Below are positions 41,150 to 46,133 of a stretch of 64,000 bases of DNA, in pieces; position 1 is the first letter of the stretch, and every line of letters begins with the position of its first letter. A program made the position numbers and the translations under genes. The notes beneath the pieces are model-generated. The model did not search any database. It worked only from the letters and a program-made list of their open reading frames with translations, and was not told the origin of the DNA. This stretch comes from Parvibaculaceae bacterium (GTDB taxonomy: Bacteria; Pseudomonadota; Alphaproteobacteria; Parvibaculales; Parvibaculaceae), in assembly GCA_028283765.1 (NCBI GenBank), contig JAPWJY010000008.1:1-64000 (forward strand), written 5' to 3'.

Positions 41150-41812
41150 ATGAAGACGAAGCTGTTCGCGAGCCTGGCCGTCGCCGCGCTCCTCGTCCTC
41201 GGGGCGGTATATCTGATCGCCGGGCCCGGGAGCAATGCCGACGATGCGGCGGGTGGGGCGGGGAAGACCTCCCAGCCCGTCTCGCAGGCGGACGAGGCGA
41301 AGGCGGCGGCTGTGGCCGCCAGCCTTAAAAGCTACGCGACCGGCGCCATGGCGAATTTCGTGCCCGAGGCCGCGCCGTCGCCCGTGCCGGAGGTCAGCTT
41401 CACCGATGCCGGGGGTGCAAACCATGATTTGGGCCTGTTCCGGGGCAAGCTCGTGGTGCTCAACCTCTGGGCCACCTGGTGTGCGCCCTGCCGCCATGAA
41501 ATGCCGACGCTGGACCAGCTTGAGGGCGAGATCGGCGGCGACCGGGTCGCGGTGGTGGCGCTGAGCGTCGACCAGACCGGGCTCGACGAGGTGAAGAAAT
41601 TCTTCGCCGGGATAAAGGTCAGCCATCTGGCCATCTATAATGACCCGACGGCGGCGGCCGGGCTGAAGTTCAAGGCGATCGGCCTGCCGACGACCCTGCT
41701 CATCTCACCCGGCGGGCTGGTGCTTGGCCGCTTCGTGGGACCTGCCGAATGGAATGCCCCTGAAGCGAAGGCCCTTATCGACGCCGCCGCGAAGGCCTAT
41801 GCCGCCGGCTGA
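41150..41812 (+). CDS. tlpA: TlpA-like periplasmic thiol:disulfide oxidoreductase
   Basis: This 220-residue thioredoxin-fold protein is anchored in the inner membrane by an N-terminal helix (about 5-24) and faces the periplasm. The redox motif is WCAPC with C111 and C114 in 'LNLWATWCAPCRHEMPTLDQ', followed by 'RVAVVALSVDQTGLDEVKKF' and the cis-proline loop in 'AIGLPTTLLISPGGLVLGRF'. TlpA reduces copper centres and cytochrome c maturation partners in related bacteria. The divergent argH-tlpA pair is common in alphaproteobacteria. The ATG at 41150 has aagggatcac before it; an open frame further upstream overlaps argH. A strong terminator follows. Confidence 0.92.
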   Translation: MKTKLFASLAVAALLVLGAVYLIAGPGSNADDAAGGAGKTSQPVSQADEAKAAAVAASLKSYATGAMANFVPEAAPSPVPEVSFTDAGGANHDLGLFRGKLVVLNLWATWCAPCRHEMPTLDQLEGEIGGDRVAVVALSVDQTGLDEVKKFFAGIKVSHLAIYNDPTAAAGLKFKAIGLPTTLLISPGGLVLGRFVGPAEWNAPEAKALIDAAAKAYAAG

Positions 41813-41839
41813 CCGGATCGCCTTTCCAGACATGATCGC

Positions 41840-41871
41840 AGCCCGTTCCGCCCAGGCGGAACGGGCTTTTT
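41840..41871 (+). terminator. rho-independent terminator of tlpA
   Basis: AGCCCGTTCCGCC and GGCGGAACGGGCT form a 13-bp stem (about 12 bp if the loop opens) with a tiny loop, followed by TTTTT. It starts 28 bases after the tlpA stop and is one of the strongest terminators in the window. Confidence 0.93.
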
Positions 41872-41920
41872 GCTGCGTCTGACGAGGGCGCCCGGGGCAG
41901 GAGAAACTGCACATCTCCAC

Positions 41921-41945
41921 GGAACCGAATTCTGCGATGGCCGTT
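41921..41945 (+). promoter_or_regulatory. EcfG-type (general stress response) promoter
   Basis: GGAAC (41921-41925), a spacer of 17 bases, then GTT (41943-41945), preceded by CC. This fits the alphaproteobacterial EcfG consensus GGAAC-N16/17-(C)GTT. It stands 80 bases before the entericidin gene, which heads three genes of a typical stress regulon, and about 1.1 kb upstream of an EcfG-like sigma factor. Confidence 0.75.
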
Positions 41946-42025
41946 CTTTCCATAACGGACGCCGGAGCACGCGCCATGGGCTTTGGTGAATCCGCTTGAA
42001 GCTTGATGAGCAACAGGAGCGGACG

Positions 42026-42169
42026 ATGAAGAAATTGAACGCAGCTACGGCTTTGGTTCTCGTTTTTGCGGCCCTGAGTGTTGCCGCCTGCAGCACCACG
42101 GAAGGTTTCGGCCAGGACGTGAAGGATACGGGCCAGAGCATCAAGAACACGGCACAGGACGCCAAATAG
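42026..42169 (+). CDS. entericidin A/B-like small lipoprotein
   Basis: This 47-residue protein has a lipoprotein signal peptide (MKKLNAATALVLVFAALSV, then A-A-C at the lipobox, cysteine 22). The mature part 'STTEGFGQDVKDTGQSIKNT' is an amphipathic helix typical of the entericidin family, membrane lipoproteins often under stress-sigma control. caggagc precedes the ATG. It heads a trio with a DUF1328 gene (26-base gap) and a CsbD gene and lies 80 bases downstream of a GGAAC-N17-GTT promoter. Confidence 0.88.
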   Translation: MKKLNAATALVLVFAALSVAACSTTEGFGQDVKDTGQSIKNTAQDAK

Positions 42170-42194
42170 ATAACCAGAAGAGGAGGGCCAGATC

Positions 42195-42371
42195 ATGTTG
42201 TATTGGGCCGCTGTATTTTTTGTCATTGCACTGATAGCCGGTTTTCTCGGATTTGGCGGAATCGCTTCCGCCACGGCAGGGATCGCACAGATCCTGTTCT
42301 TCGTTTTTATCGTGCTGTTCGTGTTGAGCCTGATTTTCGGCGGGTTACGGGGTCGTCGTCCCCCGCTCTAG
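42195..42371 (+). CDS. DUF1328 small membrane protein
   Basis: A 58-residue protein made almost wholly of two transmembrane helices ('[20 protein letters not shown]' and '[20 protein letters not shown]') with a short basic tail 'GLRGRRPPL'. This is the DUF1328/YtjA pattern, found in general-stress regulons of alphaproteobacteria; the function is unknown. aggaggg lies seven bases before the ATG. It is the middle gene of the entericidin-DUF1328-CsbD trio, with a 25-base gap before it and 70 bases after. Confidence 0.88.
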
Positions 42372-42441
42372 AAATCCTCGCTGTGGCAAGGAGAAGTTCA
42401 CGGACTTTTCCTTCCACACTCAACCTCAAGGGAGTCGATTC

Positions 42442-42642
42442 ATGAACTGGGATCAGGTCGCAGGCAACTGGAAGCAGATTTCCGGTGAGATACGCGCCAG
42501 GTGGGGCAAGCTCACGGATAGCGATGTCGAGATCATCCGCGGCAATCGGGAGAAGCTTGAAGGCGTCTTGCAGGAGCGTTACGGCACCGGCAGGGAAAAG
42601 GTCAAAAGCGATGTCGATGAATGGGTGAAGACCCTGAAGTAA
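42442..42642 (+). CDS. CsbD-family stress protein
   Basis: A 66-residue hydrophilic helical protein of the CsbD family: 'MNWDQVAGNWKQISGEIRAR' and 'WGKLTDSDVEIIRGNREKLE' followed by 'GVLQERYG' are the conserved blocks. CsbD proteins are general-stress markers controlled by sigma-B in Bacillus and often by EcfG or RpoS elsewhere; the molecular role is unknown. It is the last of three short genes behind the GGAAC-N17-GTT promoter. Confidence 0.92.
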   Translation: MNWDQVAGNWKQISGEIRARWGKLTDSDVEIIRGNREKLEGVLQERYGTGREKVKSDVDEWVKTLK

Positions 42643-43078
42643 GCCATCGGAAGGGAGCGGGATGCTCTCGTCCAACCCCGTCGCCAGCCGGACCTGGGTT
42701 CGCTGGCGAGGGTGCGGTGGCGCGGTATCCGCGTCGAATCTGGCGGGTTCCGTGAGGATGCCGCTTGCCGCCGCACCTGATTCTGTTTTTTTACAGAATT
42801 GTCGACGCCTTATCCCCGTCAGAACGGGGAATTATCCATTATTCACAGATTAAATTTTTGTAACGACCCAATGTGGCCAGAATAAGGTCGAAAGATCTTC
42901 ATTCAATGAACTTTGCCTGCGAGGCGAATAGTTCGAATTCAGCCCTTTTCATTCAGGTTCCATGCACCAAGTTGAAATGTATGGTGCTGGTATGCTGATG
43001 GTACAGGGACGGATATTTCCCTCTGGCATACGCTCTAACGGCATCGGCTGACACCTCGAAAACAGGAAAGGCTGAGCA
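42643..43078. other. intergenic region upstream of the EcfG-like sigma factor gene
   Basis: No gene is seen in these 436 bases. The AT-rich part from about 42780 to 42960 probably carries the sigma-factor promoter. An inverted repeat GCACCA-N12-TGGTGC at about 42964-42987 could be an operator, but I cannot name a regulator. No GGAAC-N16/17-GTT motif is present on the plus strand here, so autoregulation by EcfG is not evident. Confidence 0.4.
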
Positions 43079-43735
43079 ATGACCAACGAACCCGCCAAGC
43101 AACAAAAATCCTCTGTCGACAGCGAACCGTTCGAAGTTCTGAGCGACGATGACTTCAGGAAAGAGATGATGGAAGCGCTGCCGCATTTGCGCGCTTTCGC
43201 CCGGTCGCTTGCAGGTAATCGTGATGCAGCGGACGATCTTGTACAGGATTGTCTTGTGAAGGCGTGGTCCGCGCGTGCCAGATTTCGCGGGGGCTCCAGT
43301 TTTCGCTCATGGTCCTTTGTGATTTTGCGCAACATTTTCCTCTCGGCGCGCCGGCGCGACAAGTTTGTCGGCGAATGGGACGAGGATGAGATGGCGCGGC
43401 GCCTGTGGGTGCCTGCCGCTCAGGAATCCCAGCTCGATCTCGCCGATCTCCAGCGCGCCCTCATGGAATTGCCCCAGGCGCAGCGCGAAGCCATTGTGCT
43501 CGCCGGTGCGGCGGGTCTCCCCTACGAAGAAGTTGCCGAGATTTGCGGATGCGCCGTCGGCACCGTGAAAAGCCGTGTGGCGCGCGCGCGCGTCGCCCTG
43601 TTGCGGATGATCGAGAACGGCGAAGGCCAGAAGCGCAGCGAAAGCAAGGTACCGGCCATTGAGGTAATGGATTTTCTCTGGGCCCAGGTAACCGGCGAAC
43701 TGGCCAGGAGCCGTGAAACCCGGCTTGTGTTGTGA
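43079..43735 (+). CDS. EcfG-like ECF sigma factor (general stress response)
   Basis: A 218-residue extracytoplasmic-function sigma factor close to the EcfG (ECF15) group, which drives the general stress response in alphaproteobacteria. Region 2 starts with 'LPHLRAFARSLAGNRDAADD' and 'LVQDCLVKAWSARARFRGG'; region 4 ends with 'LPYEEVAEICGCAVGTVKSR', the EcfG-typical helix-turn-helix ('EICGCAVGT[IV]KSR'). An N-terminal extension of about 35 polar residues and a C-terminal extension of about 35 residues are longer than usual. Release from a NepR anti-sigma factor by phosphorylated PhyR is the known mechanism. A NepR-like gene follows, but no phyR or kinase is in the window. Confidence 0.9.
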   Translation: MTNEPAKQQKSSVDSEPFEVLSDDDFRKEMMEALPHLRAFARSLAGNRDAADDLVQDCLVKAWSARARFRGGSSFRSWSFVILRNIFLSARRRDKFVGEWDEDEMARRLWVPAAQESQLDLADLQRALMELPQAQREAIVLAGAAGLPYEEVAEICGCAVGTVKSRVARARVALLRMIENGEGQKRSESKVPAIEVMDFLWAQVTGELARSRETRLVL

Positions 43736-43750
43736 CGAGAGTGCAAGGCC

Positions 43751-43782
43751 CGGGAAACACATAAAATTTTATGTGTTTCCCG
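43751..43782. repeat. 32-bp perfect palindrome between sigma factor and NepR-like gene
   Basis: CGGGAAACACATAAAA is followed directly by its exact reverse complement, giving a 32-bp palindrome without spacer. It begins 15 bases after the sigma-factor stop. It could be a terminator hairpin (without a T-run), a protein-binding operator, or a processing site that separates the two genes. Confidence 0.85.
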
Positions 43783-43800
43783 AAATCAGAATTTGCCCGT

Positions 43801-44220
43801 ATGGATTGGAACCTTGATATAAGCCGAGCATTGGCGACAAGAGTGCGCAATGTCACGGACATGATGCCGTCGTCTTCTTGGACTGCTTTTGCAGTTCATG
43901 ATGGGAAACAGGTGGACGTCTTGAGACAGGGACATAAAGGGCCAAAGTCCGTGGTCCAGAAGCCGGGTACTGCCGGGCCTCCGGCTCTGCAGCCCGATGT
44001 GAAGCGAGGCATGGTTTTCGAGGCCGCACCGGAGAGTGCCGGAAAGGTCGGAAGCTGGGTTTCCGGCGATCCCGAACAGGCTCAGGCCAGTGCGGCTACG
44101 GACCCGGTTCAGGAAGGCGTGACGGAGCTTTATAACGCCGTTCTCAAGGAGCCTCTCCCCGATCGCCTGACCGATACGATCGAAAATCTCGGCGACGAGG
44201 ATGAAGAACCCCGGTCCTGA
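43801..44220 (+). CDS. NepR-like anti-sigma factor with a long N-terminal extension
   Basis: The C-terminal 37 residues match the NepR core: '[20 protein letters not shown]' plus '[17 protein letters not shown]', compared with the family pattern G-L-x2-L-Y-x2-V-x-x-E-P-[VL]-P-D-R-[FL]. NepR binds the EcfG sigma factor and is displaced by phosphorylated PhyR. Here about 100 residues precede the core, with low-complexity Pro/Ala/Gly parts ('[20 protein letters not shown]'), which NepR usually lacks. The true start is uncertain: 43771 lies inside the palindrome, and 43801, 43861 and 44011 are further options, none with a good ribosome-binding site. It follows the sigma gene on the same strand, whereas nepR usually precedes it. 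Confidence 0.7.
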
Positions 44221-44315
44221 TTTACGTTGCAGGGGCGCCTTGCGCCCACCCTTTTGCTCATGGACGCCACGGCCCTCATTGGCGAGGGCGCGCGCGGGTG
44301 CTATATCCCCGGCCC

Positions 44316-46133
44316 ATGAGTGACAAAAACCCTACCGATCTCGCCCATATCCGCAATTTCTCGATCATCGCCCACATCGATCACGGGAAATCGACGCTTG
44401 CCGACCGGCTGATCCAGCTTTGCGGGGGCCTGACCCAGCGCGAGATGAAGGAGCAGGTGCTCGATTCCATGGATATCGAGCGCGAGCGCGGCATCACCAT
44501 CAAGGCGCAGACGGTCAGGCTCGACTACACCTACAAGAATGGGGAGCTTTATGAGCTGAACCTGATCGACACCCCCGGCCACGTCGACTTCGCCTATGAG
44601 GTCAACCGCTCGCTGGCCGCCTGTGAAGGCTCGCTGCTGGTGGTCGACGCGAGCCAGGGCGTGGAAGCCCAGACGCTGGCGAATGTCTATCAGGCCATCG
44701 AGGTCAATCACGAGATTATCCCCGTCCTCAACAAGATCGACCTGCCCGCCGCCGAGCCTGAGCGCGTGCGCGAACAGATCGAGGAGGTGATCGGGCTCGA
44801 CACCTCCAACGCGGTTGAAATTTCCGCCAAGACCGGCCTTGGCATCGAGGCGGTGCTGGAAGCGATCGTCGAACGCCTGCCCTCGCCCAAAGGCGATGCC
44901 ACAGCCCCCCTCAAGGCCATGCTGGTCGATAGCTGGTATGACAGCTATCTCGGCGTGGTCGTGCTGGTGCGGGTGATCGACGGCGAGATGCGCAAGGGCC
45001 AGCGGATCAAGATGATGGCCTCCGGCGGCGCTTACACGCTTGATCAGGTGGGCATTTTCCGGCCGAAGAAGGAAAATGTCGCGGCGCTGGGGCCGGGAGA
45101 AATCGGTTTCTTCACGGCCTCGATCAAGGAAGTGGCTGACACCCGCGTCGGCGATACGGTGACGGAGGAGCGACGCCCCTGCGCGGCCGCGCTGCCGGGC
45201 TTCAGGCCCGCCCAGCCCGTGGTGTTCTGCGGTCTCTTCCCGGTCGATGCCTCGGAATTCGAGGATCTGCGCGACGCCATCGGCAAGCTCCGGCTCAATG
45301 ACGCGAGCTTCGAGTTCGAGATGGAAACCTCCGCGGCGCTCGGTTTCGGCTTCCGTTGCGGTTTCCTCGGCCTGCTGCATCTGGAAATCGTGCGCGAGCG
45401 GATCGAGCGCGAATTCAATATCGACCTCATCACCACCGCGCCCTCGGTCGTCTATCACCTCTATATGACCAACGGCGACATGATCGAGATGCACAATCCC
45501 GCCGACATGCCCGATGTGGTCAAGATCGACCATATCGAGGAGCCGTGGATCCGGGCCACCATTCTGGTGCCGGATGAGTATCTGGGCTCGATCCTGAAGC
45601 TGTGCGAGGACCGGCGCGGGCGGCAGGTGGAACTCACCTATGCCGGTTCACGCGCCATGCTGGTCTACCGGCTGCCGCTCAACGAGGTGGTGTTCGACTT
45701 CTACGACCGGCTCAAGTCGGTTTCGCGCGGCTATGCCAGCTTCGACTATCACATCGAGGGCTATGAAACCGGCGATCTGGTGCGCATGTCGGTGCTGGTG
45801 AACGAGGAGCCGGTGGACGCGCTCTCCATGGTGGTGCACCGGGCGCGCGCCGAGCAGCGGGGCCGGGCCATGTGCGAGAAGCTGAAGGAACTGATCCCCC
45901 AGCATCTGTTCAAGATTCCGATCCAGGCGGCCATCGGTGGCAAGGTGATCGCGCGCGAGACGATTTCGGCGCTGCGCAAGGACGTGACCGCCAAATGCTA
46001 TGGCGGCGACATCACCCGCAAGCGCAAGCTTCTGGACAAGCAGAAGGAGGGCAAGAAGAAGATGCGCCAGTTCGGCCGCGTCGACATTCCGCAGGACGCC
46101 TTCATCGCCGCCCTCAAGATGGACGAAAACTGA
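44316..46133 (+). CDS. lepA: elongation factor 4 (LepA)
   Basis: LepA is a ribosome-associated translational GTPase that acts during stress and initiation. The 605-residue protein has the G1 motif in '[20 protein letters not shown]', the switch region '[20 protein letters not shown]', NKxD as '[16 protein letters not shown]', and the C-terminal LepA-specific domain starting '[20 protein letters not shown]' with the tail '[20 protein letters not shown]' in near-identical form ('[20 protein letters not shown]'). The ATG at 44316 gives a standard LepA N-terminus ('[20 protein letters not shown]'); six codons upstream are also open. Confidence 0.97.

Follow-up and report, generated by a model that had tools for sequence, protein, structure and literature searches.

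PhyR is the accepted trigger of the EcfG/NepR response. Homologues of EcfG, NepR and PhyR are found in essentially all free-living alphaproteobacteria, according to the portion of PMC3892343 available, and the usual layout is nepR-ecfG with a divergent phyR (PMC8103513, in the part available). In Sphingomonas melonis Fr1, excerpts of PMC6599016 describe NepR2, which is encoded next to ecfG, as an EcfG-regulated negative feedback regulator that binds PhyR but perhaps not EcfG; on this precedent, a NepR-like gene next to ecfG does not have to encode the anti-sigma factor of that EcfG.

We analyzed a 64,000-nt stretch of DNA from a member of the Parvibaculaceae, hereafter the window, which lies on contig 3 of a 3.24-Mb, nine-contig genome rated 100% complete. 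Our best reading of its sigma factor locus is an EcfG/NepR module that has lost PhyR; how the module works we infer. If this is true, a lineage with EcfG and a NepR-like brake but no PhyR would show how a partner switch comes to be taken apart or rewired, and PhyR-free control becomes open to direct testing. The literature searched on this point yielded no PhyR-less or PhyR-independent NepR system.

An EcfG-type sigma factor in an unusual gene order

43079–43735, + strand: ecfG, encoding an EcfG-type (ECF15-like) sigma factor of 218 aa (tree, solved relatives)

In a 35-row tree the product of this gene falls with the EcfGs and apart from 11 other ECF sigma factors (support 99/95), and its nearest neighbors outside the genus are same-family EcfGs encoded beside phyR. 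Its closest solved structure is 5uxx_A, at 137 bits, the next scoring 67 bits. Judged by its sequence relatives, 43079–43735 encodes a true EcfG, and the tree support bears out the preliminary description of this DNA, which had named it so. Comparisons between species rely on a congener (G001), the only other match among the 61 genomes searched (2/61 with this genome); it is a metagenome-assembled genome, 68% complete, and two of its fetched loci (L004 and L005, JAATFR010000399) were taken as the same contig because their alignments are identical. The two species share 203 of 218 EcfG residues, against 163 expected at random (0/5000 shuffles), and ecfG served as the positive control of this codon-substitution randomization test.

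The NepR-like gene follows on the same strand, with 185 nt from the ecfG stop to TTG 43921. This order, sigma factor then NepR, had been called the reverse of the usual one, and the relatives agree: in each of seven fetched loci (L009–L013, L015 and L017) ecfG is immediately preceded by nepR in the same orientation, and phyR is divergent. Another locus, L018, holds NepR, PhyR and a sigma factor in a different layout. By eye, no NepR2-like gene was seen among the small frames 3′ of ecfG in L006, L007, L008 and L014.

Two features of these relatives are recorded in their own right. The N-terminal stretch of the EcfG of Polymorphobacter arshaanensis (L006, 5806–6615) resembles NepR by eye (LGALLRVAFAEAEAAKLPQAFIDLLDRL); a similar extension is reported for Methylobacterium extorquens EcfGs (PMC4814048, in the part available). 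In a Novosphingobium sp. metagenome-assembled genome (L008, 6600–7037), a gene for a single-domain receiver shares a few bases with the end of ecfG.

The downstream gene is a NepR-like homologue

43921–44220, + strand: nepR-like gene, 99 aa from TTG 43921; alternative starts GTG 43912 (102 aa) and ATG 44011 (69 aa) (codon pattern, Shine-Dalgarno [SD] sequence)
44107–44181, + strand: NepR core, comprising helix 1, EPLP turn and helix 2 (family NepR alignment; AlphaFold2 helices, low confidence)

The NepR core lies near the 3′ end of an open frame at 43771–44220 (+ strand, 149 codons counted from the first ATG), where it had been reported. Against the Pfam NepR profile the 99-aa form scores 21.0 bits (E = 2.6e-4) and the congener protein 18.4 bits, both under the 25.7-bit gathering score. 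Because the score is below this curated cut-off, we treat the gene as a NepR-like homologue, on sequence grounds, and not as a confirmed member of the NepR family; what stands of the NepR partner first proposed is a real gene with an above-chance match. It is the one NepR match in the whole genome, where no second NepR was found, and it adjoins ecfG both here and in the congener. The alignment with NepR families that had been proposed as a check was run: E77 and P80 (99-aa numbering) are invariant across 17 aligned rows, and in helix 1 the Y is retained while V-T replaces the L-R of relatives. At the corresponding positions of NepR, L-to-A and Y-to-A changes lower activity and R-to-A does not (PMC6599016, in the part available). 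From a two-sequence input, AlphaFold2 predicted only the two core helices, with low confidence (residues 65–79 and 84–90 of the 102-aa form; mean pLDDT 55.4, block pLDDT 54–67), and gave the extension no structure. The PDB holds NepR entries; a sequence search with the NepR-like protein recovered none of these, just two chance matches to mitochondrial ribosomal proteins.

It is unlikely, in our estimation, that the gene is instead a soluble relic of a wider class of ECF anti-sigma proteins, marked by an LY..V..EP.P.RL motif and encoded after their sigma factor, and not a NepR at all. Such an origin would account for the gapless resemblance of residues 38–93 to the anti-sigma protein of locus L063 (phmmer E 7.7e-4, against fetched frames), and for the sigma-then-anti-sigma order, which is common to L063, L078, L080, L082 and the same-family, soluble 93-aa case of L036. 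However, the congener protein has no L063 match at E ≤ 10 and finds its best matches in NepRs (L008, L010, L013), an 11-residue insertion interrupts the alignment, and the sigma factor is an EcfG that does not group with the ECFs of such loci, which form a clade of 11 rows. The Pfam NepR profile likewise gives E 2.6e-4 for the gene vs 0.011 for the L063 protein. An anti-sigma-domain origin of the extension was suggested by the window sequence alone and was set aside, as the congener gives it no support.

As a separate observation, the post-sigma anti-sigma proteins at L063 (655–1743), L036 (945–1223) and L078 (401–1198) carry the LY..V..EP.P.RL motif or a variant at the end of the anti-sigma domain, a hint that NepR and such domains have a common ancestry.

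A structured leader in place of a long extension

43751–43782, + strand: perfect 32-nt palindrome/hairpin between ecfG and nepR (12/14 pairs kept in congener)
43879–43898, + strand: second leader hairpin, directly before the nepR initiation region (8/8 pairs kept in congener)

The preliminary description had placed about 100 extra residues before the NepR core and proposed that they might add an input to the partner switch. We reject a coding extension of this length: in the congener the same frame is interrupted three times 5′ of ~43882, by one TAG and two TGA; substitutions by codon position are evenly spread at 43822–43920 (4/3/5); the codon-pattern randomization gives p 0.85 for 43822–43911, with three stops; and ATG 43771 falls within the palindrome. 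Most of the supposed extension belongs to an untranslated leader, in which two hairpins show covariation. Relative to the congener, three pairs of the hairpin at 43751–43782 and one pair of that at 43879–43898 have changed on both sides, and in each species the fold of the nepR leader is more stable than that of shuffled sequences (z −3.04 and −3.17). Although the sequences are few (n = 2), this pattern fits a structured leader rather than coding sequence. The window contains no second copy of the palindrome, and Rfam gave no match above the gathering score, the two sub-threshold ones being deemed chance.

Downstream, third codon positions are favored (3/7/13 at 43936–44010 and 4/6/16 at 44011–44098), and the codon-pattern p values are 0.07 (borderline) for 43912–44010, which is open in both species, 0.016 for 44011–44097 and 0.008 for 44104–44190. 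TTG 43921 is preceded at a spacing of 5 by the SD AGGTGG (−7.0 kcal/mol), identical in both species and stronger than that of ecfG itself (−4.9 kcal/mol), and an in-frame 6-nt indel between the species follows it. The best start would thus be TTG 43921 (99 aa) or GTG 43912, with ATG 44011 as a possible one; relative to same-family NepRs, either of the former leaves ~30 additional residues and the latter none.

The chief competitor, possible though doubtful in our judgment, is an ordinary 69-aa NepR translated from ATG 44011; all of the preceding sequence would then be untranslated, and only the gene order and the missing PhyR would be unusual. A strong coding signal begins only at 44011, 69 aa is in the length range of same-family NepRs, and a start codon is present there in both species (the congener has GTG for the window's ATG). 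Against this, the SD-like GAAGCGAGGC touches the ATG with zero spacing, the congener lacks an SD there (−3.3 kcal/mol), and the open frame, conserved SD and in-frame indel upstream point to TTG 43921. A start at 44011 had been named beforehand as the outcome that would tell against an extension; it stays a candidate, and the conserved SD favors the upstream start. As at most ~30–40 extra residues are left, predicted unstructured and partly conserved, the idea of the extension as an additional input is weakened.

PhyR and its sensor kinases are undetected

The window had been described as lacking phyR, and PhyR is undetected genome-wide as well. Across the whole genome the PhyR_sigma2 profile (PF22029) matched EcfG itself only (34/34 candidates scored), a same-family PhyR query found receiver domains only (best E 3e-4; 20/20 scored), and a PhyR profile found nothing at 1e-25 among the best 8 of 11 candidates. 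Two receiver loci that we opened are ordinary response regulators. Neither HWE_HK (10/10 candidates scored) nor HisKA_2 (5/5 scored) was found in the genome, and both profiles detect matches in a Caulobacter control. For the genus, the absence of PhyR rests on this one complete genome, the congener being 68% complete.

A class survey of 290 genomes gave a NepR match at E ≤ 0.003 in 61 and over the cut-off in 54, and PhyR is present in at least 50 of the 54 (PhyR profile, best ≤8 candidates per genome). The four with an over-cut-off NepR and no PhyR among the candidates scored (G089, G238, G246 and G306) may include misses, because at most eight candidates were scored per genome; the loci fetched for these four and for six other genomes, this one included, held no full-length PhyR. 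On the same basis of the best ≤8 candidates per genome, PhyR was not matched in 9/61 NepR-matching genomes, again including this one, and in at least four of the nine (G162, G166, G202 and G246) the NepR match lies within long frames of 235–339 aa. PhyR without a NepR match occurred in four genomes of the survey. Within the family, PhyR is held by 7 of the 25 genomes searched, and this patchy retention makes loss of PhyR within the family plausible.

Separately, in G148 and G221, frames of 202 and 188 aa (L076, 1426–2031; L079, 1462–2025) match only the sigma-like half of PhyR; they have no receiver domain match and adjoin nepR-like and ecfG-like genes.

Candidate promoters, a stress operon and the ecfG leader

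41921–41945, + strand: EcfG-type promoter-like site GGAAC-N16-CGTT, before the entericidin-DUF1328-CsbD operon (conserved in congener)
42026–42169, + strand: entericidin EcnA/B-family small lipoprotein (PF08085, 27 bits)
42195–42371, + strand: DUF1328 small membrane protein (PF07043, 55.1 bits)
42442–42642, + strand: CsbD-like stress protein (PF05532, 54.3 bits)
42840–43078, + strand: ecfG 5′ leader, unusually conserved (two-species alignment)
43808–43832, + strand: weak EcfG-type promoter-like site GGAAC-N16-CATT, before nepR (congener has GGAAC-N17-CATT)

With spacers of 15–18, the GGAAC/CGTT pattern has five matches in the window vs 1.75 expected. At the 41921 site both hexamers and CGTTCTTTCCATA are retained in the congener, where the surrounding spacer is 67% identical. 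The CATT-type pattern has two window matches vs 0.70 expected by chance. The CATT of the nepR site departs from the usual CGTT/GTT; in S. melonis the consensus is GGAAC-N17-20-GTT, and the table of EcfG-regulated genes includes CATT-ending motifs (PMC6599016, in the part available). We abandoned a genome-wide EcfG regulon based on this pattern, as GGAAC/CGTT is not enriched over a reversed control (56 matches vs 53), and most of the 30 matches inspected out of the 56 lie inside long frames. One congener-conserved site would fit recognition of GGAAC-N16/17-CGTT by this EcfG; given the lack of enrichment, this EcfG may control very few genes, or the site may be a chance match. No sigma-70 promoters were found at 41800–44400.

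The ecfG leader is conserved beyond the coding sequence that it precedes: 226/239 aligned columns are identical (94.6%) vs 87.1% for ecfG. No Rfam family matches it over threshold.

These patterns of conservation also bear on whether the locus is a remnant in decay, PhyR having gone and EcfG and NepR persisting without a working circuit. The long branch of the genus pair in the EcfG tree (0.52), the weak NepR score, the unenriched promoter pattern and the patchy retention of the general stress response in the family would all suit such a remnant, but the strong protein-level selection on ecfG and the conservation of the leader, the hairpins and the csbD-operon site would not, and we regard decay as improbable.

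Proposed explanation

We assign a probability of roughly 50% to the reading in which EcfG works with a soluble NepR-like anti-sigma factor that has diverged, neither PhyR nor the HWE/HisKA_2 kinases have been retained, and control runs through the amount of EcfG and feedback. Using its two-helix EPLP core, the NepR-like protein would hold EcfG and so prevent it from joining RNA polymerase. Without PhyR to remove the NepR-like protein, activation would be set by the amount of EcfG relative to NepR, and that amount may be controlled via the highly conserved ecfG leader, making ecfG expression the trigger. Free EcfG would then transcribe the entericidin-DUF1328-CsbD operon from GGAAC-N16-CGTT and, from the weaker GGAAC-N16-CATT, nepR; the two sites suggest delayed negative feedback with the input at ecfG expression. 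A NepR-like protein that both sequesters EcfG and is made by it would turn activity into a pulse.

Since the normal input, PhyR with an HWE/HisKA_2 kinase, is missing, another is still needed. Lon degrades sigma-T in Caulobacter (PMC10662116, in the part available), and by analogy such degradation of the sigma factor offers one that would not require PhyR. More tentatively, the locus might serve a PhyR-free general stress response, a self-limiting EcfG/NepR loop that receives its signal through RNA (the ecfG leader and the nepR-leader hairpins) or through the N-terminal region of NepR.

Comparison with known systems

The locus shares with the PhyR-NepR-EcfG partner switch an EcfG of the same clade, a NepR-like core, EcfG-type promoter-like sites and putative target genes of stress type. 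It differs in that PhyR, HWE_HK and HisKA_2 are undetected and the sigma factor precedes the NepR-like gene, and because PhyR was not found we do not file it as a member of that system. By its description in the available part of PMC6599016, NepR2 of S. melonis Fr1 is alike in its place beside ecfG, its C-terminal-only NepR resemblance and the EcfG-linked expression that we propose here, whereas NepR2 binds PhyR and acts alongside a full NepR and PhyR, and here neither PhyR nor a second NepR was found. Unlike this locus, the NepR/EcfG paralogues of M. extorquens operate with PhyR present, and they resemble it in that their NepRs have diverged, putative promoters of EcfG type are present and negative feedback has been proposed (PMC4814048, in the part available).
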